Positions 13,717 to 41,739 of a stretch of 64,000 bases of DNA are shown one piece after another. Position 1 is the first letter of the stretch. The number at the start of each line of letters is the position of its first letter. Under the pieces are notes generated by a model that did not search any database, was not told the DNA's origin, and saw only the letters and a list, made by a program, of their open reading frames with translations. The position numbers and the translations under genes were made by a program. Source of the stretch: Clusia tigrina (taxonomy: Eukaryota; Arthropoda; Insecta; Diptera; Clusiidae); contig OV050030.1 in NCBI GenBank assembly GCA_920105625.2, positions 347,369,477 through 347,433,476 on the forward strand, read 5' to 3'.

Positions 13717-14369
13717 TATGTTAAAATCGCCATCTGTGTCAATAAATGATGACGGTGAAATCAGTGATGAGCTTGTTGGGTGAAAAAAATTATGATGATG
13801 ATATTGATGAAACCAGCGATAATACCGACAGGGAGTGTGTTTAGCATACATAGATATTTTCACTAGAACTCTACTATTTACCAGAAACTTGCATATGTAA
13901 AAAACCGATATTTTGTATACAATGAAAATGAAAATATTTCCAACAACACATATCTTGAAAATTTTTTTCTTTGTTTTTATTTTTCGTGTTTTAACTATAG
14001 GGGGTTGAAGCGTCAGTTTTCGTTAAAGCGTCAGATTCGCTGAAGCTCGTTGAAACGTAAATTTTCTCAGGATGGGAATATGCGATTAGAGTTCTCCTCT
14101 ATTCCATCTAGACCGATTGTGCGTGGCGAAGAGTCACATCCTCCCCGAGGTAACCCTGCTATTTATAGCAGAACACTACGGATCTAGACTGAGGAGTCAA
14201 TAAACACCTCCCCGGATACAGGGTGTGGAGGAGCAAACCTCTATAAAAACTTATTGGTTGGAGCAAGATGTCATATGACCCGTGTCGATGCTCAGCCTAG
14301 CTGGGGACCAAGGTAAAAAAAAATAGCCCAGTCTCTAACGGAGTGCTCCGGATACTTGGCGTCCACCGG
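13717..14369. other. Spacer with unassigned GC-richer part
   Basis: 13717-14040 is AT-rich. 14041-14369 is GC-richer, with TATA-like words (ctatttatagc, ctataaaaac) and aataaac, and could be an LTR or LINE 3' piece. It has no second copy in the window. It ends exactly where the duplicated env fragment begins (14370). Confidence 0.35.
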
Positions 14370-15609
14370 TTCCTAATGAATTGGAGCACCCTTAGGTTAT
14401 TCTGAGCCTCCTTGTTCTTCTTTCTAGATTTGCAGGCCCAAAGGTTTATGACTAGTGCCAGCAAGGCTACGGTTATAGCCCCTGCTATGATCAGGTTCTG
14501 TAGTGACATAGTCACGACCTCGTTGCGTACCGTGTTTATTTCGTCGAGATTAACTTCATTAAGCTCGCGCAAATAAGGGAGGGATAACACCGACGTGAAA
14601 TCAGTAAGGTTCACTGTATGGAAAGAAGGAATTCCCGCCCTCAGTAAAGGTGTCCTTTTGGGATTTATGTAAGAGGTGCCGTTACTAAGAATTTCCGAAT
14701 CGAATGTTATTAGCACAGTGCCATTCTCCTTTACGGGCGCCCTCATTGATACCTCGACTATGGTGGATTGGCTTCTTAAAAGTATGACTCCGTCGTCGAT
14801 AGTCTAAAGAGCTGGCATGTCGTGGGCTGGAACCGAATTGCAGGATGAAGAAAAGTTCTTCGCTAAGCGACTAAGGCAGGTGTCGGATGGGTTGCGCTCG
14901 CAAAACCACATCGTCTTGTCGGATGGTTTGCAGGTTAAAGTGGGCAGGAAAGTTCTGGACTGGACAAATTTATTTTCCCTAACGACAGGAAAGACTAACG
15001 TACGCTCGCAGACTGGATCCACAATTGTGTATTTGACCAGGAAGTAAAGCTCTGTGTCACTCTGGTACAGTGAAATATTCGAGACGGCTATAATGCTCAT
15101 TACCGTCACATTTCCCGAGTGCTCCTCCCTTACTAGCTCTTCCACCTCACGGGCGTCCAATAACGTGGGATTTACGACGTTCAACCTAGCCATCGCGATG
15201 GAATTCAGGAGGTTGTTTAATTCCATCATGATCACCCTATTGCGGCTGGTCACCAAAAAGAATAGGATGGCTGAGTCGAGCCTATCCCGTTTGGTGGCTC
15301 TCATGAGCTCGTTCACGGTGTGGCTCGTTCACAGTGTGCCTAATTTGTACCTGCATTACAGTATTGACGTGTATTTGTTGCCCGTGTGATGCGATTAACC
15401 GGTCCTGAGTGCGCGTAAGAGCTTGGAAGTCATCGGCGTCGGGAGTGCCGGCAATGAATTTTAAAGCCGAACACAATATGTCAATGTCGCGGGCATGCCT
15501 ATGATGAACTTGAATCAGCTGCAGTAAGCGGCTGATCTGCTCTATGTCAGCTTCAATTAGTTTCCTCATGTCGGATTCCGGGAAGTATTGAAGGACCGTT
15601 CCCCAATAC
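14370..15609 (-). pseudogene. Errantivirus env 3' fragment, copy A
   Basis: Frames 15569-15282, 15316-14804 and 14746-14297 hold the C-terminal two thirds of a gypsy-type envelope protein (the family related to baculovirus F fusion proteins). A hydrophobic membrane segment (IIAGAITVALLALVINLWAC) lies near the C-terminus, followed by a basic KSRKK tail. The frames are mutually shifted, so no full protein can be made. At 15609 env sequence stops and a plus-strand LINE starts. At 14370 it stops against unrelated DNA, so copy A has lost its PPT and 3' LTR. Confidence 0.82.
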
Positions 15610-15614
15610 GCTGA

Positions 15615-16035
15615 CTGTTGTCAGGGGGCGGGGGGCTACCCCGGGGATCTATCGACAGCAGACAGTCGTCCGTCAAAGCAGGCCTTTTACGAAAAGAAGG
15701 CGGCCTTCAAGGTCTTGACAAAATACGAAACTCTACCAACTAGTCAGCTCAATGACGAGCAGGCCAAATCGGTAGAGTGGGCAAGGGGTGTGCTATCCGG
15801 CTTGGGCAAACCGGCGGGCACAACCCCAAAGAGACAACGTTCGGCTGAAGAGGCGGGGGAGGTCGCAAAAAGACAAAAAGTCGGCGGCCAAAAATACCCA
15901 TCCTACAGCGAAGTTGTCAAAGGTGGGGTGAGATGCTGTCCATTATTGACCGGAAGAAGGGGGAAGGGGTCATACCCAAAGAGAAGTGGAGGTGGGTGGA
16001 GCAAGCGATTGTCGAAGTCTACCTCCAAGTCTTAG
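15615..16035 (+). pseudogene. LINE ORF1 C-terminal fragment, copy A
   Basis: The frame is open from about 15615 through KQAFYEKKAAFKVLTKYETL and a basic segment (TPKRQRSAEEAGEVAKRQK) to YPSYSEVVKG. It then shifts, and a neighbouring frame reads IDRKKGEGVIPKEKWRWVEQ. This matches in layout the ORF1 of the LINE at 40519-41691, where YSEKANGP is followed by the DUF4780-type domain. ORF1 binds element RNA. The N-terminal half is missing and no clear ATG start exists. Confidence 0.6.
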
Positions 16036-16068
16036 AGGAAAACCCTGGACCATTATTATTGTAGAGAT

Positions 16069-17098
16069 GTGGAAGCAACATCGGAAGCAGCTAGACTAAG
16101 AAGAATTCTAGCGATGACACCACACATCCTGGGCTACCTTAAAGGACCAGGTGATGTATGGAGTGAATCGAGCGAGGAATCTTTGGCTCTTCTCTTAAAT
16201 ACGCATTTTCCACGCAGTAGCACGGTGGAGGGTAATAACTCGACATCTAGGGGTAGGAAGTCTGAAATAGAAAATACGATAGTTACAATCGAGAAAGTTG
16301 AGTTGGCCATGAACACCTTTGGTACATACAAATCTCCGGGTCCGGTTGGAATTTACCCTGCTTAATTTCAACAATCACGGGACATAATTATGCCCTGGGT
16401 TGTGGCTGCAATTAGAAACTGTCTTAACATGGGCTATATTCCGCTGACATGGAGAGAAACGAAGGTTTCCTTCATACCCAAGGCAGGCAGGTCCTCTCAT
16501 GTAAATCCTAAAGAATTCAGACCAATCAGTCTCACGTCTTTCCTCCTAAAAACACTGGAGAGATTGTTGGATGGACACTTACGGAAAGCTATACCAACTG
16601 GTAGAATCTCCTCGGCACAACATGCATACACGAAGAGCAAATCGACAGAGACGGCGTTACACGTACTTATTGGAATAGTGGAAAAAGCCATCCAGCAGAA
16701 AGATTTCGCACTAGCGGCGTTCATTGACAGAGAAGGCGCTTTAACAACATAATTGTGAACGCCCTAACAGGAGCGTTAGAAGGTCTGGGCGTCGATCCTA
16801 ATATGGTTGCGCTGATAGAGACGATACTCGTCAGCAGGGAGGTAACTGCCAGCTTAGGTACCTACACCTTAAGCAGATAGGTATGCAGAGGCACTCCTCA
16901 GGGAAGAGTCCTCTCCCCGTGCTCTGGAATTTTGCTACCCCTAGAGAGGGGGGGGGGGGGGGTTGCCATGTCGTCGCTCATGATGACGACTTGGCAATTG
17001 TGGTTAGAGGAAAATATCCAAACACTCTTATAGATATTTTGCGCTCTAGCATGGCCCCGCTTACTGGTTGGACGGGAAGAAGGGTTAAACCCCGATAA
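16069..17098 (+). pseudogene. LINE reverse transcriptase, broken, copy A
   Basis: Frames 16069-16365 and 16390-16752 carry TYKSPGPVGIYPA, YIPLTWRETKVSFIPKAGR and EFRPISLTSFLLKTLERL. After stops, the catalytic box region reads AHDDDLAIVVRG where AYADD is expected, so both the tyrosine and the alanine are changed. The sequence just upstream of 16069 passes straight from ORF1 into RT, so the endonuclease domain has been deleted. Confidence 0.82.
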
Positions 17099-17324
17099 TA
17101 TGGAATTAATGCTCTTTTCCAAAAAGTAGATATCCTATGGTCTCCCCGCTAATATACAAAGGTGCGAAATTCCGATGAAGGACACAGTCAAATATTAGGG
17201 GCTAGTACTAGATAGGAAACTAACCTGGAAACCCAATATTGAAGAAAGAGTTAGAAAGGCCAATATTGCTTTATACAAATGAAAAAATTCGGTCGGAGTC
17301 AGGTAGGGGTTATCCCCACGAATT

Positions 17325-18599
17325 ATGCACTGGCTGTACATTTCGGTGGTCAGACCAATATTGCTATATGGAATACTGGTATGGTGGCCAGCCACTCGGA
17401 AACAAAGCTATTTGAAGCTTCTCAGCGAGGTCCAAAGAACGGCTTTTTTATGCATCTCTGGTGCTTTAAGGACCACGCCTACTAAAGCTTTAGAAGTAAT
17501 ACTCAACCTACCTACATTAGAGCTGGTAGGGAAACAAGTGGCCGCCACATCAGCACTAAGGCTGAAATGTGCGGCGTTATGGCATCATCGGCAGATAGGT
17601 TACTCAACTATTGCGCATATCTGGAGTAGTTATATCCAACACATTGACCACTCTATACCTAATCTCAACTGCGATATGCACTTCCAGACATATATTCCGT
17701 CTAGAAGAGAGTGGCAGACACCAATGCCATGGAGAAGGGGGGAACTGAATTTCTACACTGACGCATCCAAACTTGACGATAGAGTCGTTTTTGGAGTTTT
17801 CTCACAAGAACTGGGAGTGGAACTTTCTTTCCATCTCCCCGGCCACTGCAGTATTTATGAAGCAGAGGTCCTAGCCATAAAGGAGGTAACCGTCTACTTA
17901 AATAGGCATGCCGTAACAAAAAATATTATAAATATCTACTCGGATAGCCAAGCGGCCATATTTTCAATGAATTCGGTGGCACTGAAATCAAAGGTTGCTC
18001 AGGACTGTCGAGCCCCCCTAAATGATATCAGAACCGTTTTCAAAACACGCCTTATATGGGTTCCGAGGCACAGGGATATTGCGGGAAACTGTAGGGCTGA
18101 TGACTTAGGCTGATGACTTAGGCTGATGACCAACCTTCCTTTAGGCACGGACAAATGTGTTATTGGAATACAAATTACCACCTGTAAACTGATGCTGAAG
18201 GATAGGGTCGTGCGTGAGACCAACGGGTCTTGGGCACAAGAGGGCACTTGCTTAACGACTCGCCTAATGTGGCCGGAACTTAATAGAAGGAAAACTAGAG
18301 ACTTGCTTTCCCTGTCGAAAGAGAATATCTCTAGGGTCGAGGCTTTTGTAACTGGTCACTGGCTGTTCGGCAGACATGCTCTCAGGCTTGGAGTATTCTC
18401 TCATGAATACTGCAGAGGCTGTGGGTATGAGGAGGAGGAGGAGACTGTGGAACATCTCTCTTGTAGTTGGCCCGCTCTGCCTAGAAGCAGAGCGGGCTCT
18501 TTAGGCAAATACGCTTTTAGCTCTCTTACAGAGGTGTCTGGCGCGAAGGTCAAACAAATCCTGCGCTTTATTAGGGCTTCGAAATGGTTTGACGAGTGA
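17325..18599 (+). pseudogene. LINE thumb, RNase H and C-terminal zinc knuckle, copy A
   Basis: The frame 17325-18113 contains LYISVVRPILLYGILVWWPA (thumb), NFYTDASKLDDRVVFGVF, YEAEVLAIKEV, IYSDSQAAIFS and LIWVPRHRDIAGNCRADDL. These are the RNase H catalytic segments with D, E and D present. The frame 18126-18599 contains FGRHALRLGVFSHEYCRGC and EHLSCSWPAL, the terminal knuckle. A short repeated unit at 18095-18130 separates the two frames. Copy A has TDASK where copy B has TDGSK. Confidence 0.85.
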
Positions 18600-18818
18600 A
18601 TCGGAGGTGCGTTGTGGCGCGGTGGACCCACAATGGACCCATGGTGGTCTGAGTTAGCTGGTCGTTGGACAGGCTGCCACATTAACATAGCCTAACCTAA
18701 ATAAAAAAGAAGGTTAATCATAAATATTTTACCCCTGTGATTTAAGGGTCGAAAACGGTATCAAATACCCAACTTTACAACATCGAGGTCGAAAAACTCA
18801 AAAAACGATATATTCTGT

Positions 18819-19361
18819 GGCCCATAGACGATACATCATGATCATACTCATTCGGGTACGTGTTGAATGAAGCTCCGCCACAGACGAGTGATCAAAATCG
18901 AATATCATCATTTTTTCGTAGTCGACGTTGAGTGAGGTTGTCATGTCTCTGTCGGATGACGAAGTTTTGTGTGCGAAAGCGCTTGTACTGTGCAAGGAAA
19001 AAATGTAAAAAAAATAAAAAAACGATTTTGGAAAGGCACAAAAAAAATTGTACAATAGCATTCAAGGGACTCCAGCAGAAACGCATTTTTATTATTTTTA
19101 TCCGCATACATCTTCACTCGTTGGCAGTCAAACTTAAGTGAGCAAAATTTGCATATGAATTGCCCACAAACGACGATCATCCATACGTCATGATCAACAT
19201 CGTAATAAAATTCCCCTCAAAATCTAAATGATTTAGATTTTCGACGATCAGCCAGTGATCACAGCGCGATCATGTCTGTGTGACACATCCATGCATATTT
19301 TCTGTCTTTTTCACACATACTATTAAATATGAGTATGATCATGATGTATCGTCTATGGGCC
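18819..19361. mobile_element. 543-bp element with 33-bp perfect terminal inverted repeats (copy A)
   Basis: 18819-18851 is the exact reverse complement of 19329-19361; the repeats begin ggcccatagacgatacatc. The interior has no long ORF. A short start (MSLSDDEVLCAKALVLCKEK, from 18943) is reminiscent of DNA transposase N-termini such as Harbinger, but this is only a likeness. Length and structure fit a MITE. I could not see a clear target duplication. Confidence 0.75.
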
Positions 19362-19872
19362 GCATCAGGAATATGCGACATTCCCCTGTTTAGTACAAAA
19401 TCTTGAAATATTGTTTCAAAAACTAGTATCAACATTTTTGTTGCAGCCACCATTTTTAATGTTGATGATTTCATTTGTATGTGGAGGCTAATTGCTTTGT
19501 CATTTTGTTTCTTATATTCTTAATGCTTTTACGATCATACGTTCTTCTCTATATTGATTTCATATAAAATTAAAGACGCATTTTATGTATATACACATAA
19601 ATAAAATACATGTTTACATTTGAAAGTGTTCATTTGGTTGAATTTCTTTTCTCGAATATGAATTAATAATTCAAGTCAATTTATAGAGAATTGTATTGAA
19701 ATCCTCAATATATAAATTTTTATATTTTAATTGATATTTAATATATATAATATGTATATATATAAAATTTTTTATAACAAGTTTTAATTACTGTTTATGA
19801 TCTCTCTCAAATAATTGAATATTTTGACTAATTCGGACAGAATATGCACTATGTATGTATGTAAATAAATAG

Positions 19873-20218
19873 ATTAGCTCTTCCTACTGCTGGCTAGGCC
19901 AGACGCGTCACTCCTCCGAACGCTAAGGCGTGCGGTCTGACGGCGAAGGAAGACAGTGCTGCAACTGCGACGGTTGATGAATTATAATTAGTACCTTACC
20001 TCTTCCTGCTGCTGGCTAGGCCAGACGCGTCACTCCTCCGAACGCTAAGGCGTGCGGTCTGACGGCGAAGGAAGACAGTGCTGCAACTGCGACGGTTTTA
20101 TGAATTATAATTAGTACCTTACCTCTTCCTGCTGCTGGCTAGGCCAGACGCGTCAGTCCTGCGAACGCTACGGCGTCCGGTCTGACGGCGAAGGAAGGTA
20201 TCACAGCGACAGCGGCGA
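19873..20218. repeat. GC-rich minisatellite, 122/123-bp unit, three copies (unit 1)
   Basis: ctggctaggccagacgcg recurs at 19890, 20012 and 20135. Each unit contains aggccagacgcgtc and gcgtgcggtctgacgg, which can pair in a hairpin. The third copy is shorter and diverged. The matching place in unit 2 (26948-27170) has two copies only. Confidence 0.85.
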
Positions 20219-20282
20219 TCGTCAATCAAAACAGTTATTTGCGGTAACAATTAGATTTTTATTCACTAGTGGGTTCAGAAGT

Positions 20283-21368
20283 AGTTCACAATTTAGTTTA
20301 TTATTTCGAGTTTACAGTTTCACCTTATTATTTTGAATTCAATTTAATTCACAATTCCAATTTTACTTTATAATTAAACGACCAGCTAGAGTTCACAATT
20401 TAGTTTAATATTTCGAGTTTATAATTTCATTTTATTATTTTGAATTTAATTTAATTCACAATTCCAATTTTACTTTATATTTAAACAATCAGCTAGAGTT
20501 CACAATTTAGTTTATTATTTCGAGTTTACAATTTCATTTTATTATTTTGAATTGAATTTAATTCACAATTCCAATTTTACTTTATATTTAAACAACCAGC
20601 TAGGCTTCACAATTTAGTTTATTATTTCGAGTTTATAATTTTATTTTATTATTTTGAATTTAATTTAATTCACAATTCCAATTTTACTTTATATTTAAAC
20701 AATCAGCTAGAGTCCACAATTTAGTTTATTATTTCAAATTTACAATTTCTTTTTATTATTTTCAATTTAAATTAATTCACAATTCCAATTTTATTTTACT
20801 ATTTAAACAACCAGCTAGAATTCACAATTCCAATTTTTATTATTATTTAAATGTTTAATTTACTGGTTTCAACCTCACAACCGTATTCTTTCTAACTCCC
20901 AATTGAACTTAACTAATCCCTAATTCGGAGTTCGTCACGAAGCCTCGGTTCGGAAGCCTACGTGACGTAAAGTGACGCGACAGCAAACCTCAACGCTCCC
21001 AGTTTGCGTTCCCACCACTTTCGCTTTCCGGTGCATCGACCGATCGCATTCGATTTGAGAGAATGCACTTGATCGATGCAGAATCGGCGAAATGCAGGTA
21101 ACCGAACTGCAGCACCGTCGTTTAGGTGCTTTGGGGCGGAAGTCTAACCGAAGCAAACACTTTAGAGCGAGGTGCATTGAGCGGACGGATGTCCCACACG
21201 CGCATGGTGGACGGACAGACGGACAGCTTGCACGCGCGAGATGGACGGACGGCTTGCACGCTCGAGATGGACGGACGGCTTGCACGCGCAAGCAAAAGCT
21301 GACGCTGACGGATCGTCAACTTGTACGCGCACATGACGTGCCGGCGGAAATTCACAATGCACCCTACT
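20283..21368 (-). repeat. Errantivirus LTR between units 1 and 2
   Basis: It matches the LTRs ending at 28319 and 35582. On the minus strand it starts AGTAGGGTGCATTGTG just after a polypurine tract (cttaagagggggaggaga, from 21369-21386). It holds a GC-rich part with a short repeated gatggacggacggcttgcacg motif (about 21226-21296), then about five 107-bp AT-rich units. The inner boundary (lower coordinate) is approximate. Confidence 0.75.
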
Positions 21369-21386
21369 ATCTCCTCCCCCTCTTAA
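21369..21386 (-). promoter_or_regulatory. Polypurine tract next to the LTR (unit 2 env side)
   Basis: The minus-strand sequence CTTAAGAGGGGGAGGAGA lies directly before the LTR start. This is the usual primer site for plus-strand DNA synthesis. The same tract occurs at 28320-28338 for the full errantivirus. Confidence 0.75.
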
Positions 21387-22683
21387 GCGCAGCCGTCCTC
21401 GGCTGACGGTGTAGGCGGGCCGGTAGATCTGTTGGAGCACCAATTCCTAATGAATTGGAGCACCCTTAGGTTATTCTGAGCCTCCTTGTTCTTCTTTCTA
21501 GATTTGCAGGCCCAAAGGTTTATGACTAGTGCCAGCAAGGCTACGGTTATAGCCCCTGCTATGATCAGGTTCTGTAGTGACATAGTCACGACCTCGTTGC
21601 GTACCGTGTTTATTTCGTCGAGATTAACTTCATTAAGCTCGCGCAAATAAGGGAGGGATAACACCGACGTGAAATCAGTAAGGTTCACTGTATGGAAAGA
21701 AGGAATTCCCGCCCTCAGTAAAGGTGTCCTTTTGGGATTTATGTAAGAGGTGCCGTTACTAAGAATTTCCGAATCGAATGTTATTAGCACAGTGCCATTC
21801 TCCTTTACGGGCGCCCTCATTGATACCTCGACTATGGTGGATTGGCTTCTTAAAAGTATGACTCCGTCGTCGATAGTCTAAAGAGCTGGCATGTCGTGGG
21901 CTGGCACCGAATTGCAGGATGAAGAAAAGTTCTTCGCTAAGCGACTAAGGCAGGTGTCGGATGGGTTGCGCTCGCAAAACCACATCGTCTTGTCGGATGG
22001 TTTGCAGGTTAAAGTGGGCAGGAAAGTTCTGGACTGGACAAATTTATTTTCCCTAACGACAGGAAAGACTAACGTACGCTCGCAGACTGGATCCACAATT
22101 GTGTATTTGACCAGGAAGTAAAGCTCTGTGTCACTCTGGTACAGTGAAATATTCGAGACGGCTATAATGCTCATTACCGTCACATTTCCCGAGTGCTCCT
22201 CCCTTACTAGCTCTTCCACCTCACGGGCGTCCAATAACGTGGGATTTACGACGTTCAACCTAGCCATCGCGATGGAATTCAGGAGGTTGTTTAATTCCAT
22301 CATGATCACCCTATTGCGGCTGGTCACCAAAAAGAATAGGATGGCTGAGTCGAGCCTATCCCGTTTGGTGGCTCTCATGAGCTCGTTCACGGTGTGGCTC
22401 GTTCACAGTGTGCCTAATTTGTACCTGCATTACAGTATTGACGTGTATTTGTTGCCCGTGTGATGCGATTAACCGGTCCTGAGTGCGCGTAAGAGCTTGG
22501 AAGTCATCGGCGTCGGGAGTGCCGGCAATGAATTTTAAAGCCGAACACAATATGTCAATGTCGCGGGCATGCCTATGATGAACTTGAATCAGCTGCAGTA
22601 AGCGGCTGATCTGCTCTATGTCAGCTTCAATTAGTTTCCTCATGTCGGATTCCGGGAAGTATTGAAGGACCGTTCCCCAATAC
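21387..22683 (-). pseudogene. Errantivirus env 3' fragment, copy B
   Basis: It is nearly identical to copy A and shows the same two frame breaks (frames 22643-22356, 22390-21878 and 21820-21383). Unlike copy A, its 3' end is natural, with the env C-terminal tail followed by PPT and LTR. Its 5' side is cut at 22683, where the LINE begins, at the same point as in copy A. Confidence 0.85.
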
Positions 22684-25600
22684 GCTGACTGTTGTCAGGG
22701 GGCGGGGGGCTACCCCGGGGATCTATCGACAGCAGACAGTCGTCCGTCAAAGCAGGCCTTTTACGAAAAGAAGGCGGCCTTCAAGGTCTTGACAAAATAC
22801 GAAACTCTACCAACTAGTCAGCTCAATGACGAGCAGGCCAAATCGGTAGAGTGGGCAAGGGGTGTGCTATCCGGCTTGGGCAAACCGGCTGGCACAACCC
22901 CAAAGAGACAACGTTCGGCTGAAGAGGCGGGGGAGGTCGCAAAAAGACAAAAAGTCGGCGGCCAAAAATACCCATCCTACAGCGAAGTTGTCAAAGGTGG
23001 GGTGAGATGCTGTCCATTATTGACCGGAAGAAGGGGGAAGGGGTCATACCCAAAGAGAAGTGGAGGTGGGTGGAGCAAGCGATTGTCGAAGTCTACCTCC
23101 AAGTCTTAGAGGAAAACCCTGGACCATTATTATTGTAGAGATGTGGAAGCAACATCGGAAGCAGCTAGACTAAGAAGAATTCTAGCGATGACACCACTCA
23201 TCCTGGGCTACCTTAAAGGACCAGGTGATGTATGGAGTGAATCGAGCGAGGAATCTTTGGCTCTTCTCTTAAATACGCATTTTCCACGCAGTAGCACGGT
23301 GGAGGGTAATAACTCGACATCTAGGGGTAGGAAGTCTGAAATAGAAAATACGATAGTTACAATCGAGAAAGTTGAGTTGGCCATGAACACCTTTGGTACA
23401 TACAAATCTCCGGGTCCGGTTGGAATTTACCCTGCTTAATTTCAACAATCACGGGACATAATTATGCCCTGGGTTGTGGCTGCAATTAGAAACTGTCTTA
23501 ACATGGGCTATATTCCGCTGACATGGAGAGAAACGAAGGTTTCCTTCATACCCAAGGCAGGCAGGTCCTCTCATGTAAATCCTAAAGAATTCAGACCAAT
23601 CAGTCTCACGTCTTTCCTCCTAAAAACACTGGAGAGATTGTTGGATGGACACTTACGGAAAGCTATACCAACTGGTAGAATCTCCTCGGCACAACATGCA
23701 TACACGAAGAGCAAATCGACAGAGACGGCGTTACACGTACTTATTGGAATAGTGGAAAAAGCCATCCAGCAGAAAGATTTCGCACTAGCGGCGTTCATTG
23801 ACAGAGAAGGCGCTTTAACAACATAATTGTGAACGCCCTAACAGGAGCGTTAGAAGGTCTGGGCGTCGATCCTAATATGGTTGCGCTGATAGAGACGATA
23901 CTCGTCAGCAGGGAGGTAACTGCCAGCTAAGGTACCTACACCTTAAGCAGATAGGTATGCAGAGGCACTCCTCAGGGAAGAGTCCTCTCCCCGTGCTCTG
24001 GAATTTTGCTACCCCTAGAGAGGGGGGGGGGGGGGGGTTGCCATGTCGTCGCTCATGATGACGACTTGGCAATTGTGGTTAGAGGAAAATATCCAAACAC
24101 TCTTATAGATATTTTGCGCTCTAGCATGGCCCCGCTTACTGGTTGGACGGGAAGAAGGGTTAAACCCCGATAATATGGAATTAATGCTCTTTTCCAAAAA
24201 GTAGATATCCTATGGTCTCCCCGCTAATATACAAAGGTGCGAAATTCCGATGAAGGACACAGTCAAATATTAGGGGCTAGTACTAGATAGGAAACTAACC
24301 TGGAAACCCAATATTGAAGAAAGAGTTAGAAAGGCCAATATTGCTTTATACAAATGAAAAAATTCGGTCGGAGTCAGGTAGGGGTTATCCCCACGAATTA
24401 TGCACTGGCTGTACATTTCGGTGGTCAGACCAATATTGCTATATGGAATACTGGTATGGTGGCCAGCCACTCGGAAACAAAGCTATTTGAAGCTTCTCAG
24501 CGAGGTCCAAAGAACGGCTTTTTTATGCATCTCTGGTGCTTTAAGGACCACGCCTACTAAAGCTTTAGAAGTAATACTCAACCTACCTACATTAGAGCTG
24601 GTAGGGAAACAAGTGGCCGCCACATCAGCACTAAGGCTGAAATGTGCGGCGTTATGGCATCATCGGCAGATAGGTTACTCAACTATTGCGCATATCTGGA
24701 GTAGTTATATCCAACACATTGACCACTCTATACCTAATCTCAACTGCGATATGCACTTCCAGACATATATTCCGTCTAGAAGAGAGTGGCAGACACCAAT
24801 GCCATGGAGAAGGGGGGAACTGAATTTCTACACTGACGGATCCAAACTTGACGATAGAGTCGTTTTTGGAGTTTTCTCACAAGAACTGGGAGTGGAACTT
24901 TCTTTCCATCTCCCCGGGCACTGCAGTATTTATGAAGCAGAGGTCCTAGCCATAAAGGAGGTAACCGTCTACTTAAATAGGCATGCCGTAACAAAAAATA
25001 TTATAAATATCTACTCGGATAGCCAAGCGGCCATATTTTCAATGAATTCGGTGGCACTGAAATCAAAGGTTGCTCAGGACTGTCGAGCCCCCCTAAATGA
25101 TATCAGAACCGTTTTCAAAACACGCCTTATATGGGTTCCGAGGCACAGGGATATTGCGGGAAACTGTAGGGCTGATGACTTAGGCTGATGACTTAGGCTG
25201 ATGACCAACCTTCCTTTAGGCACGGACAAATGTGTTATTGGAATACAAATTACCACCTGTAAACTGATGCTGAAGGATAGGGTCGTGCGTGAGACCAACG
25301 GGTCTTGGGCACAAGAGGGCACTTGCTTAACGACTCGCCTAATGTGGCCGAAACTTAATAGAAGGAAAACTAGAGACTTGCTTTCCCTGTCGAAAGAGAA
25401 TATCTCTAGGGTCGTGGCTTTTGTAACTGGTCACTGGCTGTTCGGCAGACATGCTCTCAGGCTTGGAGTATTCTCTCATGAATACTGCAGAGGCTGTGGG
25501 TATGAGGAGGAGGAGGAGACTGTGGAACATCTCTCTTGTAGTTGGCCCGCTCTGCCTAGAAGCAGAGCGGGCTCTTTAGGCAAATACGCTTTTAGCTCTC

Positions 25601-25780
25601 TTACAGAGGTGTCTGGCGCGAAGGTCAAACAAATCCTGCGCTTTATTAGGGCTTCGAAATGGTTTGACGAGTGAATCGGAGGTGTGTTGTGGCGCGGTGG
25701 ACCCACAATGGACCCATGGTGGTCTGAGTTAGCTGGTCGTTGGACAGGCTGCCACATTAACATAACCTAACCTAAATAAA
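22684..25780 (+). mobile_element. I/LOA-type LINE without endonuclease, copy B
   Basis: This is a copy of the LINE in unit 1, with the same frames: ORF1 fragment 22689-23109, RT 23143-23826 and the catalytic box region near 24050, thumb/RNase H 24400-25188, and C-terminal knuckle 25201-25674. It has a 16-G run where copy A has 15, and TDGSK in RNase H, which is the expected form. The differences from copy A are few, consistent with copying by duplication and not by separate retrotransposition. Confidence 0.87.
24400..25674 (+). pseudogene. LINE RNase H and C-terminal zinc knuckle, copy B
   Basis: The same two frames as copy A (262 and 157 residues), with the RNase H motifs NFYTDGSKLDD, EAEVLAIKEV and IYSDSQAA, and the knuckle CRGCGYEEEEETVEHLSC. 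These are the best-preserved parts of the LINE. The linker between the frames again contains the repeated ggctgatgactta unit (about 25170-25205). Confidence 0.85.
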
Positions 25781-25893
25781 AAAGAAGGTTAATCATAAAT
25801 ATTTTACCCCTGTGATTTAAGGGTCGAAAACGGTATCCAATACCCAACTTTACAACATCGAGGTCGAAAAACTCAAAAAACGATATATTCTGT

Positions 25894-26436
25894 GGCCCAT
25901 AGACGATACATCATGATCATACTCATTCGGGTACGTGTTGAATGAAGCTCCGCCACAGACGAGTGATCAAAATCGAATATCATCATTTTTTCGTAGTCGA
26001 CGTTGAGTGAGGTTGTCATGTCTCTGCCGGATGACGAAGTTTTGTGTGCGCAAGCGCTTGTACTGTGCAAGGAAAAAATGTAAAAAAAATAAAAAAACGA
26101 TTTTGGAAAGGCACAAAAAAAATTGTACAATAGCATTCAAGGGACTCCAGCAGAAACGCATTTTTATTATTTTTATCCGCATACATCTTCACTCGTTGGC
26201 AGTCAAACTTAAGTGAGCAAAATTTGCATATGAATTGCCCACAAACGACGATCATCCATACGTCATGATCAACATCGTAATAAAATTCCCCTCAAAATCT
26301 AAATGATTTAGATTTTCGACGATCAGCCAGTGATGACAGCGCGATCATGTCTGTGTGACACAAACATGCATATTTTCTCTCTTTTTCACATATACTATTA
26401 AATATGAGTATAATCATGATGTATCGTCTATGGGCC
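25894..26436. mobile_element. 543-bp inverted-repeat element, copy B
   Basis: This is the same element as at 18819-19361. Here the right inverted repeat has a mismatch (ataatcatg for atgatcatg). Its presence at the same place in both units shows it was there before the duplication. Confidence 0.75.
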
Positions 26437-26947
26437 GCATCAGGAATATGCGACATTCCCCTGTTTAGTACAAAATCTTGAAATATTGTTTCAAAAACTA
26501 GTATCAACATTTTTGTTGCAGCCACCATTTTTAATGTTGATGATTTCATTTGTATGTGGAGGCTAATTGCTTTGTCATTTTGTTTCTTATATTCTTAATG
26601 CTTTTACGATCATACGTTCTTCTCTATATTGATTTCATATAAAATTAAAGACGCATTTTATGTATATACACATAAATAAAATACATGTTTACATTTGAAA
26701 GTGTTCATTTGGTTGAATTTCTTTTCTCGAATATGAATTAATAATTCAAGTCAATTTATAGAGAATTGTATTGAAATCCTCAATATATAAATTTTTATAT
26801 TTTAATTGATATTTAATATATATAATATGTATATATATAAAATTTTTTATAACAAGTTTTAATTACTGTTTATGATCTCTCTCAAATAATTGAATATTTT
26901 GACTAATTCGGACAGAATATGCACTATGTATGTATGTAAATAAATAG

Positions 26948-27170
26948 ATTAGCTCTTCCTACTGCTGGCTAGGCCAGACGCGTCACTCCTCCGAACGCTA
27001 AGGCGTGCGGTCTGACGGCGAAGGAAGACAGTGCTGCAACTGCGACGGTTGATGAATTATAATTAGTACCTTACCTCTTCCTGCTGCTGGCTAGGCCAGA
27101 CGCGTCAGTCCTGCGAACGCTACGGCGTCCGGTCTGACGGCGAAGGAAGGTATCACAGCGACAGCGGCGA
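26948..27170. repeat. GC-rich minisatellite, two copies (unit 2)
   Basis: ctggctaggccagacgcg occurs at 26965 and 27087. One 123-bp unit is missing relative to unit 1, which accounts for the whole length difference between the duplication units. Confidence 0.85.
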
Positions 27171-27233
27171 TCGTCAATCAAAACAGTTATTTGCGGTAAC
27201 AATTAGATTTTTATTCACTAGTGGGTTCAGAAG

Positions 27234-28319
27234 TAGTTCACAATTTAGTTTATTATTTCGAGTTTACAGTTTCACTTTATTATTTTGAATTCAATTTAAT
27301 TGACAATTCCAATTTTACTTTATAATTAAACGACCAGCTAGAGTTCACAATTTAGTTTATTATTTCGAGTTTATAATTTCATTTTATTATTTTGAATTTA
27401 ATTTAATTCACAATTCCAATTTTACTTTATATTTAAACAATCAGCTAGAGTTCCCAATTTAGTTTATTATTTCGAGTTTACAATTTCATTTTATTATTTT
27501 GAATTTAATTTAATTCACAATTCCAATTTTACTTTATATTTAAACAACCAGCTAGACTTCACAATTTAGTTTATTATTTCGAGTTTATAATTTTATTTTA
27601 TTATTTTGAATTTAGTTACGTCACAATTCCAATTTTACTTTATATTTAAACAATCAGCTAGAGTCCACAATTTAGTTTATTATTTCAAATTTACAATTTC
27701 TTTTTATTATTTTCAATTTAAATTAATTCACAATTCCAATTTTATTTTACTATTTAAACAACCAGCTAGAATTCACAATTCCAATTTTTATTATTATTTA
27801 AATGTTTAATTTACTGGTTTCAACCTCACAACCGTATTCTTTCTAACTCCCAATTGAACTTAACTAATCCCTAATTCGGAGTTCGTCACGAAGCCTCGGT
27901 TCGGAAGCCTACGTGACGTAAAGTGACGCGACAGCAAACCTCAACGCTCCCAGTTTGCGTTCCCACCACTTTCGCTTTCCGGTGCATCGACCGATCGCAT
28001 TCGATTTGAGAGAATGCACTTGATCGATGCAGAATCGGCGAAATGCAGGTAACCGAACTGCAGCACCGTCGTTTAGGTGCTTTGGGGCGGAAGTCTAACC
28101 GAAGCAAACACTTTAGAGCGAGGTGCATTGAGCGGACGGATGTCCCACACGCGCATGGTGGACGGACAGACGGACAGCTTGCACGCGCGAGATGGACGGA
28201 CGGCTTGCACGCTCGAGATGGACGGACGGCTTGCACGCGCAAGCAAAAGCTGACGCTGACGGATCGTCAACTTGTACGCGCACATGACGTGCCGGCGGAA
28301 ATTCACAATGCACCCTACT
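27234..28319 (-). repeat. Errantivirus LTR between unit 2 and the full element (3' LTR)
   Basis: It is nearly identical to the LTR ending at 21368, including about five 107-bp units (cagctag words near 27336, 27443, 27550, 27655 and 27767). It is less like the 5' LTR at 34780-35582, which has three such units and a changed GC-rich part. The boundary at the lower coordinate is approximate. Confidence 0.75.
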
Positions 28320-28333
28320 ATCTCCTCCCCCTC

Positions 28334-29835
28334 TTAAGCGCAGCCGTCCTCGACTGACGGTGTAGGCGGACCGGTAGATCTGTTGGAGCACCAATTCCTA
28401 ATGAATTGGAGCACCCTTAGGTTATTCTGAGCCTCCTTGTTCTTCTTTCTAGATTTGCAGGCCCAAAGGTTTATGACTAGTGCCAGCAAGGCTACGGTTA
28501 TAGCCCCTGCTATGATCAGGTTCTGTAGTGACATAGTCACGACCTCGTTGCGTACCGTGTTTATTTCGTCGAGATTAACTTCATTAAGCTCGCGCAAATA
28601 AGGGAGGGATAACACCGACGTGAAATCAGTAAGGTTCACTGTATGGAAAGAAGGAATTCCCGCCCTCAGTAAAGGTGTCCTTTTGGGATTTATGTAAGAG
28701 GTGCCGTTAATAAGAATTTCCGAATCGAATGTTATTAGCACAGTGCCATTCACCTTTACGGGCGCCCTCATTGATACCTCGACTATGGTGGATTGGCTTC
28801 TTAAAAGTATGACTCCGTCGTCGATAGTCTAAAGAGCTGGCATGTCGTGGGCTGGAACCGAATTGCAGGATGAAGAAAAGTTCTTCGCTAAGCGACTAAG
28901 GCAGGTGTCGGATGGGTTGCGCTCGCAAAACCACATCGTCTTGTCGGATGGTTTGCAGGTTAAAGTGGGCAGGAAAGTTCTGGACTGGACAAATTTATTT
29001 TCCCTAACGACAGGAAAGACTAACGTACGCTCGCAGACTGGATCCACAATTGTGTATTTGACCAGGAAGTAAAGCTCTGTGTCACTCTGGTACAGTGAAA
29101 TATTCGAGACGGCTATAATGCTCATTACCGTCACATTTCCCGAGTGCTCCTCCCTTACTAGCTCTTCCACCTCACGGGCGTCCAATAACGTGGGATTTAC
29201 GACGTTCAACCTAGCCATCGCGATGGAATTCAGGAGGTTGTTTAATTCCATCATGATCACCCTATTGCGGCTGGTCACCAAAAAGAATAGGATGGCTGAG
29301 TCGAGCCTATCCCGTTTGGTGGCTCTCATGAGCTCGTTCACGGTGTGGCTTGTTCACAGTGTGCCTAAATTGTACCTGCATTACAGTATTGACGTGTATC
29401 TGTTGCCCGTGTGATGCGATTAACCGGTCCTGAGTGCGCGTAAGAGCTTGGAAGTCATCGGCGTCGGGAGTGCCGGCAATGAATTTTAAAGCCGAACACA
29501 ATATGTCAATGTCGCGGGCATGCCTATGATGAACTTGAATCAGCTGCAGTAAGCGGCTGACCTGCTCTATGTCAGCTTCAATTAGTTTCCTCATGTCGGA
29601 TTCCGGGAAGTATTGAAGGACCGTTCCCCAATACTCCGACAAGTTGGTGGCATGACGCAAATACCCGTGGTCCGTAAACAAGGCTACCTTTCCTCCGGTG
29701 ACAGGCACATAATAGGAATGGTTGTAATCATGGATGCTGCAGCGCATGTCATGCAGACCCAATAGTAACCTACAACGATGAGGATGTAAGTGGCGAGGAT
29801 GGTTATAAATTAATTATGGGGTAGTTAAGCCAGAT
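28334..29835 (-). pseudogene. env: Errantivirus env, frameshifted
   Basis: A hydrophobic leader-like stretch lies near 29800-29760, then the frames 29762-29307, 29341-28829 and 28771-28334. The family is the gypsy envelope glycoprotein, related to baculovirus F-type fusion proteins, which sits in the particle membrane. The C-terminal membrane segment and a short basic tail are visible. The two frame breaks (about 29325 and 28800) are the same as in copies A and B, so they pre-date the split of the copies or arose in a common source. No intact product is possible as read. Confidence 0.82.
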
Positions 29836-29859
29836 TCTTGTTTCATTCGTGCAGCCTGC

Positions 29860-30477
29860 CTAACGCAGATCGTCCTTATGAACCACCCTTCCCTTAATTA
29901 TGACCTTGGATCCGAGGTCCCTTTCGATCGTGGCCTGCGAATAAATCTTCGTAAGTTTGTTACCTAGCTTCCTATTCGATTTTGTGAAGACCTTATCCCC
30001 TGGTTGGAATAACCGCGTTCGCTTTCCCCTATTGAGGTTTCTCAATTCCGATTCCTGTGCGGTCTTCAACCTTTCAATCACCACGTCACTTAGCTCGTCC
30101 GGAATGGAGCGAAGTATGTCCAGTGGCCTCTGGCCTGTGACCGAGTGAATCGTACGGTTGTATCTATATACAGCAAGAAGCACTAACTCCACCGTATCGG
30201 ATGAGTGATCCGCCAGTTTTAGACATCTTGCAATGTCTGTCAACGTACTGTGGAAGCGCTCCACTTGCCCGTTCGAGATGCTGTGCAGGGGAGGGACCGC
30301 ATGAATTTTCGCTCCGAATTTATCCAGCAGTAGTGATTTGATGGTCAGGGAGTTCAAAGACTTTTCGTTCTTGCATACGACCATGCGGGTACCTTCAAAG
30401 AGATTCCAGGTTTTTAGCAAGGACCCTTTAAAATCGACTGTGGCTCGAGATCTAATCTGTTTAACGGAGGCAAACTT
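29860..30477 (-). pseudogene. Errantivirus integrase core and C-terminal part
   Basis: The frame continues that of 31572-30478 after one in-frame TAG (30480-30478). It contains EKSLNS, PPLHSISNGQVERFHSTLTD with the catalytic glutamate and ARCLK, and a C-terminal domain with GDKVFTKSNRKLGNK and VHKDDLR. Where the second catalytic aspartate is expected, before NEKSLNS, the residue is lysine (codon at 30372-30370). Integration activity is therefore lost twice. Confidence 0.85.
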
Positions 30478-31572
30478 CTAGAACTTATCCATGCATGTTA
30501 GGAAATGACTCCCTGCTGTCGAATAGATATCGATGTGGAGTATTTCTCCTGGATAGGTGGGTATAAGTGTAAGTCCAATTTTTGCTTTCCTGGGTCGGCG
30601 GTTGTATTTCGCTTCTAAGCACACCCTACAGTTCGTCACCATCTCCTTCAAACGTCGCCGAATGCTTGGGAAGTAACCGATTCTGAGGATCTGCAAGGTG
30701 TTTTCTTGTACTGAATGGTGTGCGCGGTTGTGCTCCTTTGTGATTGCTTCGACCTGCTCACTAGGGTCCACTATATTCTTGACTTCGTTTTTGCAGTACC
30801 GGAATTTTACCATGGGCAACATTTCTGGCAGGATATAGGATAGACGTTCTATAACCCTTTCGTTGCAGAAGATCCCGTTCGTCACCCCGACGTGGACGGC
30901 TTCGGTCATTAGCTTGGGGAGATCCTCCATTGATGTTATGGTAAGCTTGTGCCTTGATTGTTTCCGGAACAGGATTGACTGCACTCTTCCAGTTTTTGCT
31001 CCCTCCATGATCACAATCTGGTTTCTGAAGCAGTTCACCGGGTTAATCACCTCTGGTATGAAGCTAGAGTCGCATGACGCGTCCACGTTGTCCTCCATAC
31101 CTTCGCTTATCAGGGCGTGCATGTACTGGCGAGACAAGGCATCTGCTACCACATTAAGCCTACCGGGTTTATAATGAATCTTCGGCGCATACACCTCAAT
31201 GAACGCCCACCATCTTTTCATCTTGGAGTTGACGTTTTTATCCGACATAGCAAACGTTAGTAGCTGGTGGTCGGTATAGATATTCAGCCTTCTTACACTA
31301 TAGAGGTAATTGCAGAGTTTTTGCAAAGCCCAAAATATTGCCAGCATTTCCCTCTCGTTCGTCGCATAGTTTTCCTCAGCAGAATTCAGCGTTAGGGATA
31401 TCATGGTTATGGGGCTTCCCTGCGATAGCACAGCCCCCAACGCGTGTGAAGAGGCATCGGTGGTCAAGTCAAAAGGTTTGCTAAAGTCGGGGTACAGAAG
31501 TAGGATGTCTTCGGAGGCCAATATCGCTTTTACCCTGCTGAACGCTTCGGTAGCTTCCCCGTCGAGTTCCAC
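30478..31572 (-). pseudogene. Errantivirus RNase H and integrase zinc domain
   Basis: It starts with RNase H motifs (FDLTTDASSHALGAVLSQ, NEREMLAIFWAL, IYTDHQLLTFA), then a connection region. The H2C2 integrase zinc domain follows (HNRAHHSVQENTL...FPSIRRRLKEMV..CRVC). The frame closes at a stop at the start of the integrase core, just after HIDIYSTAG, which holds the first catalytic aspartate. It overlaps nothing upstream: the RT frame ends at 31632 and a frameshift separates them. Confidence 0.87.
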
Positions 31573-31631
31573 GGGCGTGTTTTTAGAGTAGGAGGCGCTT
31601 ACATGCCCATTCTCCCCTCGTTGATATCGCG

Positions 31632-32900
31632 TCAGAGGCTTGTGATACTTGCGTAATCCCTAATAAAGCGTCGGTAATATCCGGCAAGGCCCAGGAATGA
31701 TCTGAGGCTCCTAAGGCTCTTGGGCAGCTCGAATTGTACGATGTCGTTCACCTTTTGTGGGCAGGCCTTTATACCTTCCTTTGACACTACAAAACCCAAG
31801 AATTCCACCTCGGTCATGAAGAATTTCGATTTCTCCCGAGATGCCCTCATATTTGCTTCAGATAGCTTACCTAAAATGAGGCGCACATCTCTGAGGTGAC
31901 TCTCCCTGTTGGCAGAAAATATCAAAACGTCATCTATGTAGACGCAACAACATTTGCCGATTTCGTCGCGCAGAACATCGTCAATCGCTCGCTGGAAGAT
32001 GCTTGGCGCATTCTTCAGTCCCATGGGGAGTCGACAGTACTCGTACTTGCCGTTGTTGACGGAGAATCCTGTTTTTCCCCTATCTTCTTCTGCGAGCACA
32101 ATCTGGTAAAATCGGTTTTTCAGGTCTACAGTGGAAAAGTATTCTGATTTGCCTAAGTTGGACAAAATCACAGATAGGTCAGGTATGGGATATTTGTCGC
32201 TTTTTGTGACGTCGTTGAGTCTCTTGAAATCAAGGACGACCCGTAGTTTTCGGACGTAGACGAGCACGCCCTTTTTAGGGACCACCCACAGTGGATTATT
32301 GTACGGCGAGTAAGACTTCCGAATAATTCCCTCCTTGGGCATGGTCTCGATTTCGTTATTCACGAAGTCGGTAGCGGCGATAGGATATGGGTAAAACTTG
32401 GCGTACACTGGCTGCCTACCTTCGGTTTCGATAATTGCTACAACTCTTGTGTTAAAAGGGAGGCCTTCCTCCGGGTCGACGAACACCCTGTCCAACTCGG
32501 TTAAAAGCTGTTCCCGATCGTCCCTTTCTGTCGGAGTCCCTATGACGTCCTCACGCACGGCATTTATTTCCTGGCATGGAAATTCCTTAATGACTTCGAT
32601 GCCCTTACGGTGGAGGAAGAGTCCCTTATTGAGATCCAGAGTAGCTTCAATTTCAGTAAGGAAATCGAAACCGAGGAGAGCATCGAATGTGGCAAGGCGG
32701 GGAAGAACAAAAAACGTGGATTTCTCCTGTAGCACCTCCATCTCAAACTTTGATCTAACTAAACTAACTCCCCCTACAGACTCTACCCTGATTGGGCGGT
32801 TTACCGGCTTCACCCCCTGAAGAAAATCAAGGTCCTTAATATAATTCTTGGCAGACCCGGTGTCAATCAAGAACTTAAGGGGGCGGTCGTACAATGTCAT
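31632..32900 (-). pseudogene. Errantivirus protease and reverse transcriptase
   Basis: A 422-residue open frame. LKFLIDTGSAKNYI near the start is the protease active site. RT follows with WVVPKK, RVVLDFKRLNDVTKSDKYPIPD, FSTVDLKNRFYQI (usually DLKSGFHQI), LPMGLKNAPSIFQ and the catalytic YIDD box (CVYIDDVLIF, about 31930-31960), then FLGLAGYYRRFI. Catalytic aspartates are present. The frame shifts after YASIT, before RNase H. Confidence 0.88.
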
Positions 32901-33105
32901 TGAGAGGTATGGTAGGGAGGATCGCCCAAGCCTAAAAAATTAACCTCGTCGATAACTTCTGGCTTGTGGTGGATGAGGCCCCTTTCGCCTATTGCGACGA
33001 CGCGGGAGACCTTGCCTTACCGTCATCTCGGCCTCTGGGTCCTTTTCTTCTGGAACCATCACGTGATTCACCCTCTGGTATTTATTCGTCTGCGTTGCAT
33101 CAGGG

Positions 33106-34288
33106 CTATTTAGGTATTTTGAATGTCCTGAACACGTAATTTGACGCCGAGTGCCCTTCTTGCTGGTGCTTACCGGATGAATTGGATGGATGGAAGGGTT
33201 TGAATGACCTCTTATGGTTATTCGGCTGACCGCTGAAGGCGGGTCTACCGAAAGGTGGTCTCTGCTGCGTACCCTGGAATGTTGGGTATGCTGCTCGAGA
33301 AGTGGAAGGCCCCTCTATCTCCAATGGCGCTCCATATCCGGGTAACACTTGCCTCTGGCTCGTCCATTGACGACCATCTCGTGGTGACCGCGGTTCCCGG
33401 ATTGGTTGCGTATCATAGTATGGTGAACGAAACGACCCCTCCTGCTGCCTTGGGTTTGACCACTGTGCAATTCTGTCAGTCTGTGCGCGACTTTGGTTCT
33501 CTTCTAGCTCTAATGCCAAGGCGAGAGCGGCGGAGATATCGGTGGGCCCGGCACAAAGGACTGCAGAGCTTGTGGGCTGGTTCAGTCCGGTGACAAACAC
33601 GCTCCGAGCGATATTCCTATATTCCTCGTTCAGCATCTCCTTCTTAGCGCTGTCGTTGGCGTTGTTCATCTCGTTTTGATTCGTGAGCAACGTAAAGCGT
33701 TTCTCAATCTCATCATAATACTGTGAGACCGTCAGACGCCTCTGTCGCAGCGCCAACAACTCGTGCTGGATCGAATAGGATGATCGTTTGTCCACGTACG
33801 GGAAGTCTAGCCTAGCCATAATGGCCCTGAAGTTGCTAGGCATGTTAAAGGCGGTCAAGAGTGGATCTGCTTCCCCCACTATTTTTCCACGAATTAAGTG
33901 CACTGCCTGGTAATGCTTGGGGGTACCTTCCAAGCGGTCAAACGGGTCATACGCGCTTTGAGCAGTCCGTCGCCAGGAGGCGTAATGCGCTCGTCTATCT
34001 CCGAACTCCCTCGGAGCCTGTATCAGGACGAACAATTCGTCAGACCCCGAGTCGGCGTTTAACACCGTCTCTGTACTGCTCAATAATGGGGGCAGTCTGC
34101 TTCAAGGAATGGATCTCCAGGCGGAGTTCCTCAATGAGCTTCAAGCTCTCGTTGAAGCGACGCTCACCATCCTTGGCCGCGGCAGTGAGGGCAGTGTTCA
34201 ACAGTGCCTGATATAGGGAGACCCCCTGGGAAGTACCCCCAAACTCTGGTGCTCCCGCCTCAAGAAACGGTCCATCCACACTATGCAT
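33106..34288 (-). pseudogene. Errantivirus gag, one frameshift
   Basis: Frame 34288-34040 (82 residues from ATG, with a probable coiled helix FNESLKLIEELRLEIHSLK) and frame 34083-33106 (325 residues) together span the gypsy gag. They include REFGDRRAHYASWRRTAQSAY and FPYVDKRSSYSIQHELLALRQ, a Q/R-rich tail and a PFGRPAF region. Gag forms the particle core. The frame break is near 34050-34080. The region 32901-33105 reads as the gag-pol junction in other frames. Confidence 0.8.
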
Positions 34289-34779
34289 TTTTTCTAAATT
34301 GGATTCTATTAAGTCGCGGGTTGTGCGATAATTACAGGAAAAATATTGTAACTATAAATTGCAACAAAAAAATGTAAAAGTTATAAATAGATTAACAATA
34401 TCTTACAGGACTAGTGCAGGAGCTGATGTCTTCATTGGACTGCTGATAGCTGCTGCTGTATCGCGTAGAACTGCTCCGATTTATTACTGTGAAGATTTTA
34501 GCGAGAGCTACCTAGCCAATGGTAGTTTAGGCTACACGTCGACTTTTCCGACGGCGTATTCGCTTATCTTTAATTTAGTTTATAGGCAGTCTTACTGACC
34601 TGGAGGGTCCCGTAGGAATCGCAGATTTCAGACTCTTTTTTATGTTTTAATATCTTTCAACCTGGAGGGTCCCGTAGGAGTCGCAGCTTTCAGACTTCTT
34701 TTTATGGCACGATCTTCTAAGCTGGAGGGTCCCGTAGGCATCGCAGATTTCAGATCATTCCTCAAAGGCAAACCTACTG
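34289..34779 (-). promoter_or_regulatory. Errantivirus leader with three ~60-bp repeats
   Basis: Between LTR and gag, ctggagggtcccgtagg recurs at about 34600, 34662 and 34722, each followed by (a/g)tcgcag(a/c)tttcaga. Repeated leader blocks are known in this group (for example the gypsy insulator), but no known binding site is recognised here, so a regulatory role is only inferred. Confidence 0.55.
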
Positions 34780-35582: not shown

Positions 35583-35584
35583 AA

Positions 35585-35672
35585 CTTGTACATACATATG
35601 TTTGTACATATGTATGTATGTACATATTTATGTATGTACATATGTATGTACATATGTATTACATATGTATAT
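35585..35672. repeat. (TGTA/CATA) microsatellite
   Basis: A run of tgtacatatgtatgtac words directly flanks the 5' LTR. It is simple sequence with no gene content. Confidence 0.85.
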
Positions 35673-35837
35673 TGAATCAATCAATCATTAATCAATATTA
35701 AAAATTCCTTATTTTTATAACAAATTTATATAGAATTTGACTTTTTGTACTTTAATAATTTTACTTTCTGTATTTTATTTGTCTTCTTTTTATTTGACCT
35801 GCATGTCCCATTTTAGATTAATAGGAACAATTAATTA

Positions 35838-36042
35838 CCACCCTCTTTGGTCTAGTTGTAACCATGCTACACTCACACCCCGAGGGTCGCAGGTTCAAAT
35901 CCTGCCTCGGGCTTGGTCTCAAAAATGCTTCTTTCTCTTCGAGTCGAAAGCCTCTGGAGCTAGTACCAATTATTCACCCAACACCTTGCAGTCATAATTA
36001 ATTATGGCGCCAGAGATACTAACAATAATAATAATAATAATA
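35838..36042 (+). mobile_element. tRNA-derived SINE, copy 1
   Basis: An A-box-like tggtctagttgt and a perfect B box (ggttcaaatcctgcc, about 35893) lie in a tRNA-like head, which is followed by an unrelated body and a (AAT)n tail (about 36021-36042). A second copy is at 59691-59900 on the other strand. The head reads as a tRNA relative but carries extra sequence and no CCA-adjacent stem, so this is a SINE and not a tRNA gene. Confidence 0.8.
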
Positions 36043-41691: not shown

Positions 41692-41739
41692 GACTGTCAC
41701 TTTCCATGTCTTTCCTAAGTGAGTGGCTCGGACGATTCT

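Follow-up and report, generated by a model that had tools for sequence, protein, structure and literature searches.

We analysed a window of 64,000 nucleotides from the fly Clusia tigrina (assembly GCA_920105625.2, contig OV050030.1, positions 347,369,477 to 347,433,476, forward strand), in which a tandem array of transposon-derived DNA adjoins a minus-strand errantivirus, here called F. The array consists of two head-to-tail blocks, D1 and D2, bounded on the left by a fragment of an errantiviral envelope gene (env; fragment e1, 14370-15609) and on the right by the remainder of F (Table 1). Each block begins within a long interspersed nuclear element (LINE) and continues through an inverted-repeat element, the left half of a dispersed AT-rich repeat (R), a long terminal repeat (LTR) and 3’ untranslated region (UTR) of the errantivirus, and a further env copy, which is e2 in D1 and eF, the env of F itself, in D2.

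A first-pass annotation of this DNA had described a recent local tandem duplication with units of 7074 and 6951 bp, and a self-comparison of the window bears this out, with repeats at exactly these two spacings, far beyond chance. Between D1 and D2 we counted 36 substitutions in 6950 aligned bases (0.52%), with gaps of 1, 123 and 1 bp; the difference in block length corresponds to one unit of a 122-bp array (the 123-bp gap). The join of env to LINE occurs twice at the identical base (15609/15610 and 22683/22684), and env is continuous in F at 29634/29635, in agreement with the annotation. The copies e1, e2 and eF form one direct repeat, which flanks the duplicated spacer on either side and also separates its two copies, as expected of non-allelic homologous recombination. 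The annotation listed the minisatellite between the inverted-repeat element and the LTR, but this minisatellite, with its 107-bp units, is part of the LTR, as is the 122-bp array.

Table 1. Features of the tandem array, errantivirus F and the flanking DNA in window coordinates. TSD, target-site duplication; PPT, polypurine tract; ORF, open reading frame; RT, reverse transcriptase; MITE, miniature inverted-repeat transposable element; SINE, short interspersed nuclear element.
Feature	Coordinates	Strand	Evidence or remark
LINE 5’ end (putatively R1-like non-LTR retrotransposon), host of the putative env patch	14001..14369	+	Both sides found in 23/25 LINE loci
e1, env fragment (gypsy-type envelope, PF07253) in place of ~337 bp of LINE	14370..15609	-	PF07253 on three pieces
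D1, duplicated block	15610..22683	.	7074 bp; block alignment
Rest of LINE, first copy: ORF1 fragment, RT, RNase H; internal deletions	15610..18704	+	Match ends in LINE loci; RVT_1 and RNase_H (Pfam) matched weakly
Inverted-repeat (MITE-like) element, 36-bp arms, first copy	18816..19364	.	
R left half (dispersed AT-rich repeat), first copy	19365..19863	+	TSD TGTA 19860-19863
LTR A, duplicate of the F 3’ LTR, with 122-bp and 107-bp arrays	19864..21372	-	Edges from sister elements in the genome
PPT, 3’ UTR and env fragment e2 (duplicate of the element’s 3’ end)	21373..22683	-	Block comparison
D2, duplicated block	22684..29634	.	6951 bp; holds LINE, inverted-repeat element, R left half, LTR B, 3’ UTR and eF
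LTR B, 3’ LTR of F	26939..28323	-	TSD TGTA 26935-26938
F internal region: env broken, pol in at least 2 frames	28324..34778	-	Pfam RVT_1, RT_RNaseH, Integrase_H2C2, PF07253
LTR C, 5’ LTR remnant of F, inner part missing	34779..35586	-	Sister-element comparison; right edge 35586
R right half, with later SINE-like insertion 35839-36040	35587..37126	+	TSD TGTA 35587-35590; beside left half in 5/5 empty copies

The number of blocks is as in the assembly, and it could be an artefact if two haplotypes of a single locus of the form LINE-env-LINE...F had been joined end to end through the env repeat. The overlap would then fall in repeated env, and a block divergence of 0.52% is within the range of ordinary heterozygosity. 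However, the window contains no N and sits in a sequence of 429.8 Mb (genome 1.214 Gb, 666 contigs), and the differences between D1 and D2 were not significantly uneven in their distribution (P 0.13), and we regard an assembly effect on copy number as quite improbable. The comparisons of the LINE-env patch and of the empty insertion sites given below are independent of the number of blocks.

The array has no LTR at its left end (14370), where env abuts 5’ sequence of the LINE that also opens each block. The 369 bases preceding e1 match the LINE 5’ part, wholly or partly, in all of the first five LINE loci that we compared, with matches of 86-98% lying on the same strand upstream of the part that starts at 15602 or beyond. 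On these alignments, the left flank of the array is the same LINE that continues to the right of e1. Comparison with eight longer loci places the LINE from ~14001 to ~18704, with matches starting at 13992-14001 in five of the eight and ending at 18698-18704 in six, no LINE 3’ end having been obtained for loci L031 and L035. We then examined 25 loci among the 37 LINE places listed in the genome, and found both sides of the env site in 23, at a distance of 234-341 bp (337 bp in 8/23); the other two (L013 and L027) had no usable left-side match and were left out of the spacing count. Env was absent from this position in all 25 loci, and the window has 1240 bp of env where other LINE copies have mostly ~337 bp of LINE. 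A target duplication of the LINE was sought and not found.

The bases at the two breaks were read by eye, as were the LTR edges, the TSDs of sister elements and the primer-binding sites discussed below. At the left break, the LINE reads CCGGTTC then TATC (in most of five aligned copies) and F reads AATTC then CTAATG, with TTC in common (3 bp); at the right break, the LINE has CCCAAAC followed by GCTG, against CCCAATAC followed by TCCG in env, with AC in common (2 bp) within a similar stretch. A genome search for env-LINE junctions elsewhere, including independent ones with other breakpoints, was proposed by the first-pass annotation as a check; it matched the entire junction only at the two units of the window among 46 listed rows (best 40 of 442 candidates). 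The genome searches score the best 40 candidates, and statements that a sequence occurs only here therefore apply within those.

The LINE may be related to the R1/LOA elements. Its RVT_1 and RNase_H matches in the window are below the Pfam cut-offs. The RNase H part has fly-named relatives that are 39-49% identical, one of them named R1DM-like, the best relative being a Drosophila suzukii protein at 43% identity. The ORF1 piece of the LINE yielded 18 candidates in the protein collection, none of them significant. Neither the LINE RNase H nor the errantivirus RT had relatives in the viral contigs searched.

All three env copies in the window are closely related. Three pieces of e1 and three pieces of F match PF07253 with E values of 7.4e-18 or better, and an env piece searched against solved structures gave no match. 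Over 1240 bp, e1 differs from e2 at 1 site and from eF at 6, and e2 differs from eF at 7; at the 6 sites where e1 and e2 both differ from F, e2 carries the base of e1. The identity of e1 to the env of F is 99.5%, and the next best copy listed in the genome is 93% identical (best 40 of 75 candidates). Each of the three window copies carries an env insertion of net +7 bp, which lies at a break in the env frame and produces a tandem repeat of 16 bp, and this insertion was found in none of seven other env copies sampled from the listed genome matches. We read e1 from these alignments as a local copy of the env of F.

The shared insertion bears on a possible separate origin of e1, as the remnant of another errantivirus that entered the LINE independently of F and whose two ends were subsequently lost. 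The family is common in this genome (383 candidates for its LTR core, of which the best 40 were scored), but an independent insertion is not expected to share the +7-bp insertion with F and to differ from it at 6/1240 sites when the other listed copies reach at most 93%, and two deletions would be needed besides. We consider this origin scarcely credible.

The annotation’s full errantivirus downstream of the array is present, although not intact. Pieces of F pol match Pfam RVT_1, RT_RNaseH and Integrase_H2C2, as expected of errantivirus pol; the RT piece matched 1322 proteins (best 53% identical among 120 listed) and also solved reverse transcriptases such as that of Ty3, which confirms the family and nothing further. 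The inner part of LTR C is gone, a search next to this 5’ LTR revealed no primer-binding site, and env is frameshifted. By these features F is a defective member of the errantivirus, or gypsy-type, group.

We identified the target of F by comparison with other copies of R. The bases TGTA stand directly outside LTR A, LTR B and LTR C, as expected of a 4-bp target duplication, although they are modest evidence alone because the surrounding sequence is rich in TATG. Seven places with R were fetched, of which five (L096-L100) were taken as empty because nearly the whole query was matched. In all five, the left flank of F (19365-19863) and the DNA to the right of F are adjacent: the left match ends at 19842-19863 and the right match starts at 35589-35691, with the two either 4-22 bp apart or overlapping by 16-20 bp, and the longest right-half match reaches 37126 in one copy (L099). 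The AT-rich DNA, the inverted-repeat element and the LINE are therefore host flank of F. Judged from sequence comparison, F is shown to be a single insertion into the dispersed repeat R beside an old LINE.

At the two remaining R places, L094 and L095, an LTR of the errantivirus family is present, and we treat them separately from the empty copies. At L094 (G000:C1:349999300-350005500), 2.6 Mb away, R is joined to the same errantivirus LTR edge. This copy of R has an identity of 93-94% in matched pieces and of 87% over the query, against 79-84% and 77-83%, respectively, for the five empty copies. At L095, 20 kb from L094, R pieces match at 88-93%. Either an earlier duplication of the F insertion gave rise to L094, or the site received an insertion twice.

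We defined the LTRs by sister elements. From a genome search with the LTR core, scored over the best 40 of 383 candidates, 30 loci were cut out; two listed elements have both LTRs (L039/L053 and L042/L059). The sister LTRs end in AATT, beside the primer-binding site in the 5’ copy, with 4-bp TSDs TATA and TGTA, and the primer-binding site is present in the sister 5’ LTRs L051, L053 and L059. For LTR C, the 5’ UTR matches of several sister elements extend to 34775, and LTR homology in F starts at 34779. A length of ~0.5-1.1 kb for the LTR was dropped once the sister copies had revealed its true edges. The 122-bp array adjoins the LTR core in 27/30 loci (the two of the window included), whether the LTR is 5’ or 3’. 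Lying between the 122-bp array and the core, the 107-bp array was matched in 9/30 loci and gave no match in 21/30. The family as a whole has three tandem arrays in its 5’ UTR and LTR, with units of 62 bp (34598-34754), 122 bp (19874-20197) and 107 bp (20283-20829). Elsewhere, two same-family LTR-env copies on one strand (C139:2379922 and C139:2387149) lie 7227 bp apart with the same break in the env match, a possible tandem element with a shared LTR and perhaps a more suitable case of genuine LTR-to-LTR exchange than the present array.

With these edges in place, the origin favoured by the first-pass annotation can be weighed. It had seen a chimeric errantivirus-LINE unit, with other sequence such as the LINE in place of gag and pol, which was then duplicated through LTR-to-LTR unequal exchange. 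Each block does hold a single LTR, the cores of LTR A and LTR B show no difference (0/510), and e2 and the adjoining 3’ UTR differ from F, all of which would suit this model. However, the non-viral part starts at the outer LTR edge with a TSD, without the primer-binding site of sister 5’ LTRs, and the LINE lies outside the LTR edge and TSD instead of between the LTRs of one element; by the empty-site comparison this part is host flank, and neither gag nor pol has been replaced. The left end of the array, at 14370, has no LTR, and 1240-bp env direct repeats bound each spacer. The model would need an insertion, a deletion, an exchange and a further deletion. It is largely refuted, we hold it to be highly improbable, and LTR-to-LTR exchange is not needed.

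We infer instead a history of two steps after the insertion of F, which we consider likely: a local templated env patch in the LINE, with loss of ~337 bp, followed by unequal exchange between the patch and its source env. The LINE and R would have been present when F inserted into R. A break or stalled fork in the LINE would then have been repaired by copying the already broken env of F, ~7 kb away, by way of synthesis-dependent strand annealing or of template switching at microhomologies, which would leave LINE-env-LINE. The donor at ~7 kb, the microhomologies TTC and AC and the lost ~337 bp are consistent with such a patch. As direct repeats of 1.24 kb some 7 kb apart, e1 and eF could misalign between sister chromatids or homologues, and one unequal exchange would double the 7-kb block with the rest of the LINE, the inverted-repeat element, half of R, and the 3’ LTR and 3’ UTR of F. 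The expected product (e, spacer, e, spacer, e, rest of F) is the order of the window. Because e2 agrees with e1 at the 6 sites that differ from F, this model allows the exchange to have taken place within the first 315 bp of e. The LTR cores of F (LTR B and LTR C) differ at 15/467 sites (3.2%) and the blocks by 0.52%, and the insertion of F therefore predates the duplication; if changes are clock-like, the patch and duplication (~0.5%) would have about one sixth the age of the insertion (3.2%). In our view the locus arose incidentally, through repair and recombination in DNA dense with transposons, and we propose no selected function.

Several observations weigh against this history. Copies e1 and e2 differ at 1/1240 sites where 4.8-6.3 would be expected from the divergence of D1 and D2 (Poisson P 0.013-0.046), a hint of gene conversion or of a further, later step. 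Over the 72 bp from the LTR edge to e, block 1 shows 2 differences from F, more than expected if both were F-derived. Microhomologies of 2-3 bp are weak evidence alone, and the R-LTR junction is not unique to this locus, as L094 has R at the same LTR edge. The patch and deletion also exceed the human repair duplications described in the relevant part of PMC2671141.

The misfits in e1/e2 and in the 72 bp could be explained by gene conversion or by an order in which duplication came first: a non-homologous tandem duplication would have joined the env of F (29634) to the LINE (15610), an exchange would have added a copy, and a deletion reaching from the LINE (14369) into the leftmost env would have taken out most of that copy. 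The env-LINE join would then be the head-to-tail duplication junction itself, and e1 and e2 are indeed more alike than D1 and D2, as though they had parted later. This order nevertheless requires three events instead of two, and its deletion must by coincidence begin in the same LINE, ~337 bp before the first breakpoint; we judge it rather unlikely. We are similarly doubtful that patch and duplication, and thereby the 7-kb composite repeat unit, were made together in one round of microhomology-mediated break-induced replication in which the template was switched several times. If they were, the transposon nest would here be giving rise, in an animal genome, to a satellite-like array still at an early stage.

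We additionally identified other elements in the window. A BEL/Pao-type LTR element at 48026-56620, with LTRs 99.2% identical over 529 bp and a 5-bp TSD GGGTT (by eye), is a recent insertion, and a second, different LINE at 40702-44496 has a DUF4780-containing ORF upstream of RT and RNase H. A SINE-like element with an (AAT)n tail, and with what we take to be a B-box-like motif, occurs at 35839-36040 and, inverted, at 59688-59893. The first copy interrupts R and is skipped in the five empty R copies, save for a few tail bases in one. Scans of the window for tRNA (ARAGORN) and with Rfam gave nothing. Tandem repeats at 58772-59110 and 60640-61498 have units of ~180 and 411 bp.

Returning to the patch-and-exchange history, the locus suggests that a chimeric-looking transposon unit can probably arise without a chimeric transposon, when a repair patch seeds a direct repeat that then drives tandem duplication. 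The steps are readable because empty sites, other LINE copies and sister elements are found in the same genome. The locus also cautions against naming composite elements on the strength of a single site. Chimeric LTR/non-LTR elements such as Circe reportedly have LINE and LTR-element sequence side by side; at this locus, by comparison, the LINE took up env and the LTR element did not take up the LINE. Satellites derived from transposons are said to have been reviewed. A literature search for tandem duplication of errantiviruses surfaced work on Bari elements, and we do not claim this kind of event to be unreported.

Several related systems are known. Tandem arrays within LTR elements are described as sources of satellites in a legume, in the part of PMC7004042 that concerns them. 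In Drosophila melanogaster, 13/23 high-density transposon regions have duplications, according to the sections of Bergman et al. 2006 (PMC1794594) on such nests, which like the present locus involve local tandem duplication of transposon clusters of mixed families; the exact mechanisms are called less clear in those sections, whereas here we could identify the direct repeat around the duplicated spacer, trace its source and recognise the unit as host flank. Human repair duplications, in the data of Pace et al. 2009 (PMC2671141) drawn on here, reach 619 bp at most, with deletions of 1-15 nt and donors at less than 5 kb. As at our locus, nearby sequence was copied at a break with microhomology and deletion, although here the patch is 1240 bp, the deletion ~337 bp and the donor ~7 kb away, among fly-like transposons instead of in a vertebrate genome. 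A tandem duplication in Drosophila simulans likewise has repeats (a transposon) at its junction, and ectopic repair is discussed in the corresponding part of PMC3276153; that duplication spans 37.5 kb with six genes, whereas ours spans 7 kb and its recognised content is only transposon-like DNA. The locus is a clear and unusually readable new example of an ordinary kind of rearrangement, a kind which is itself known.

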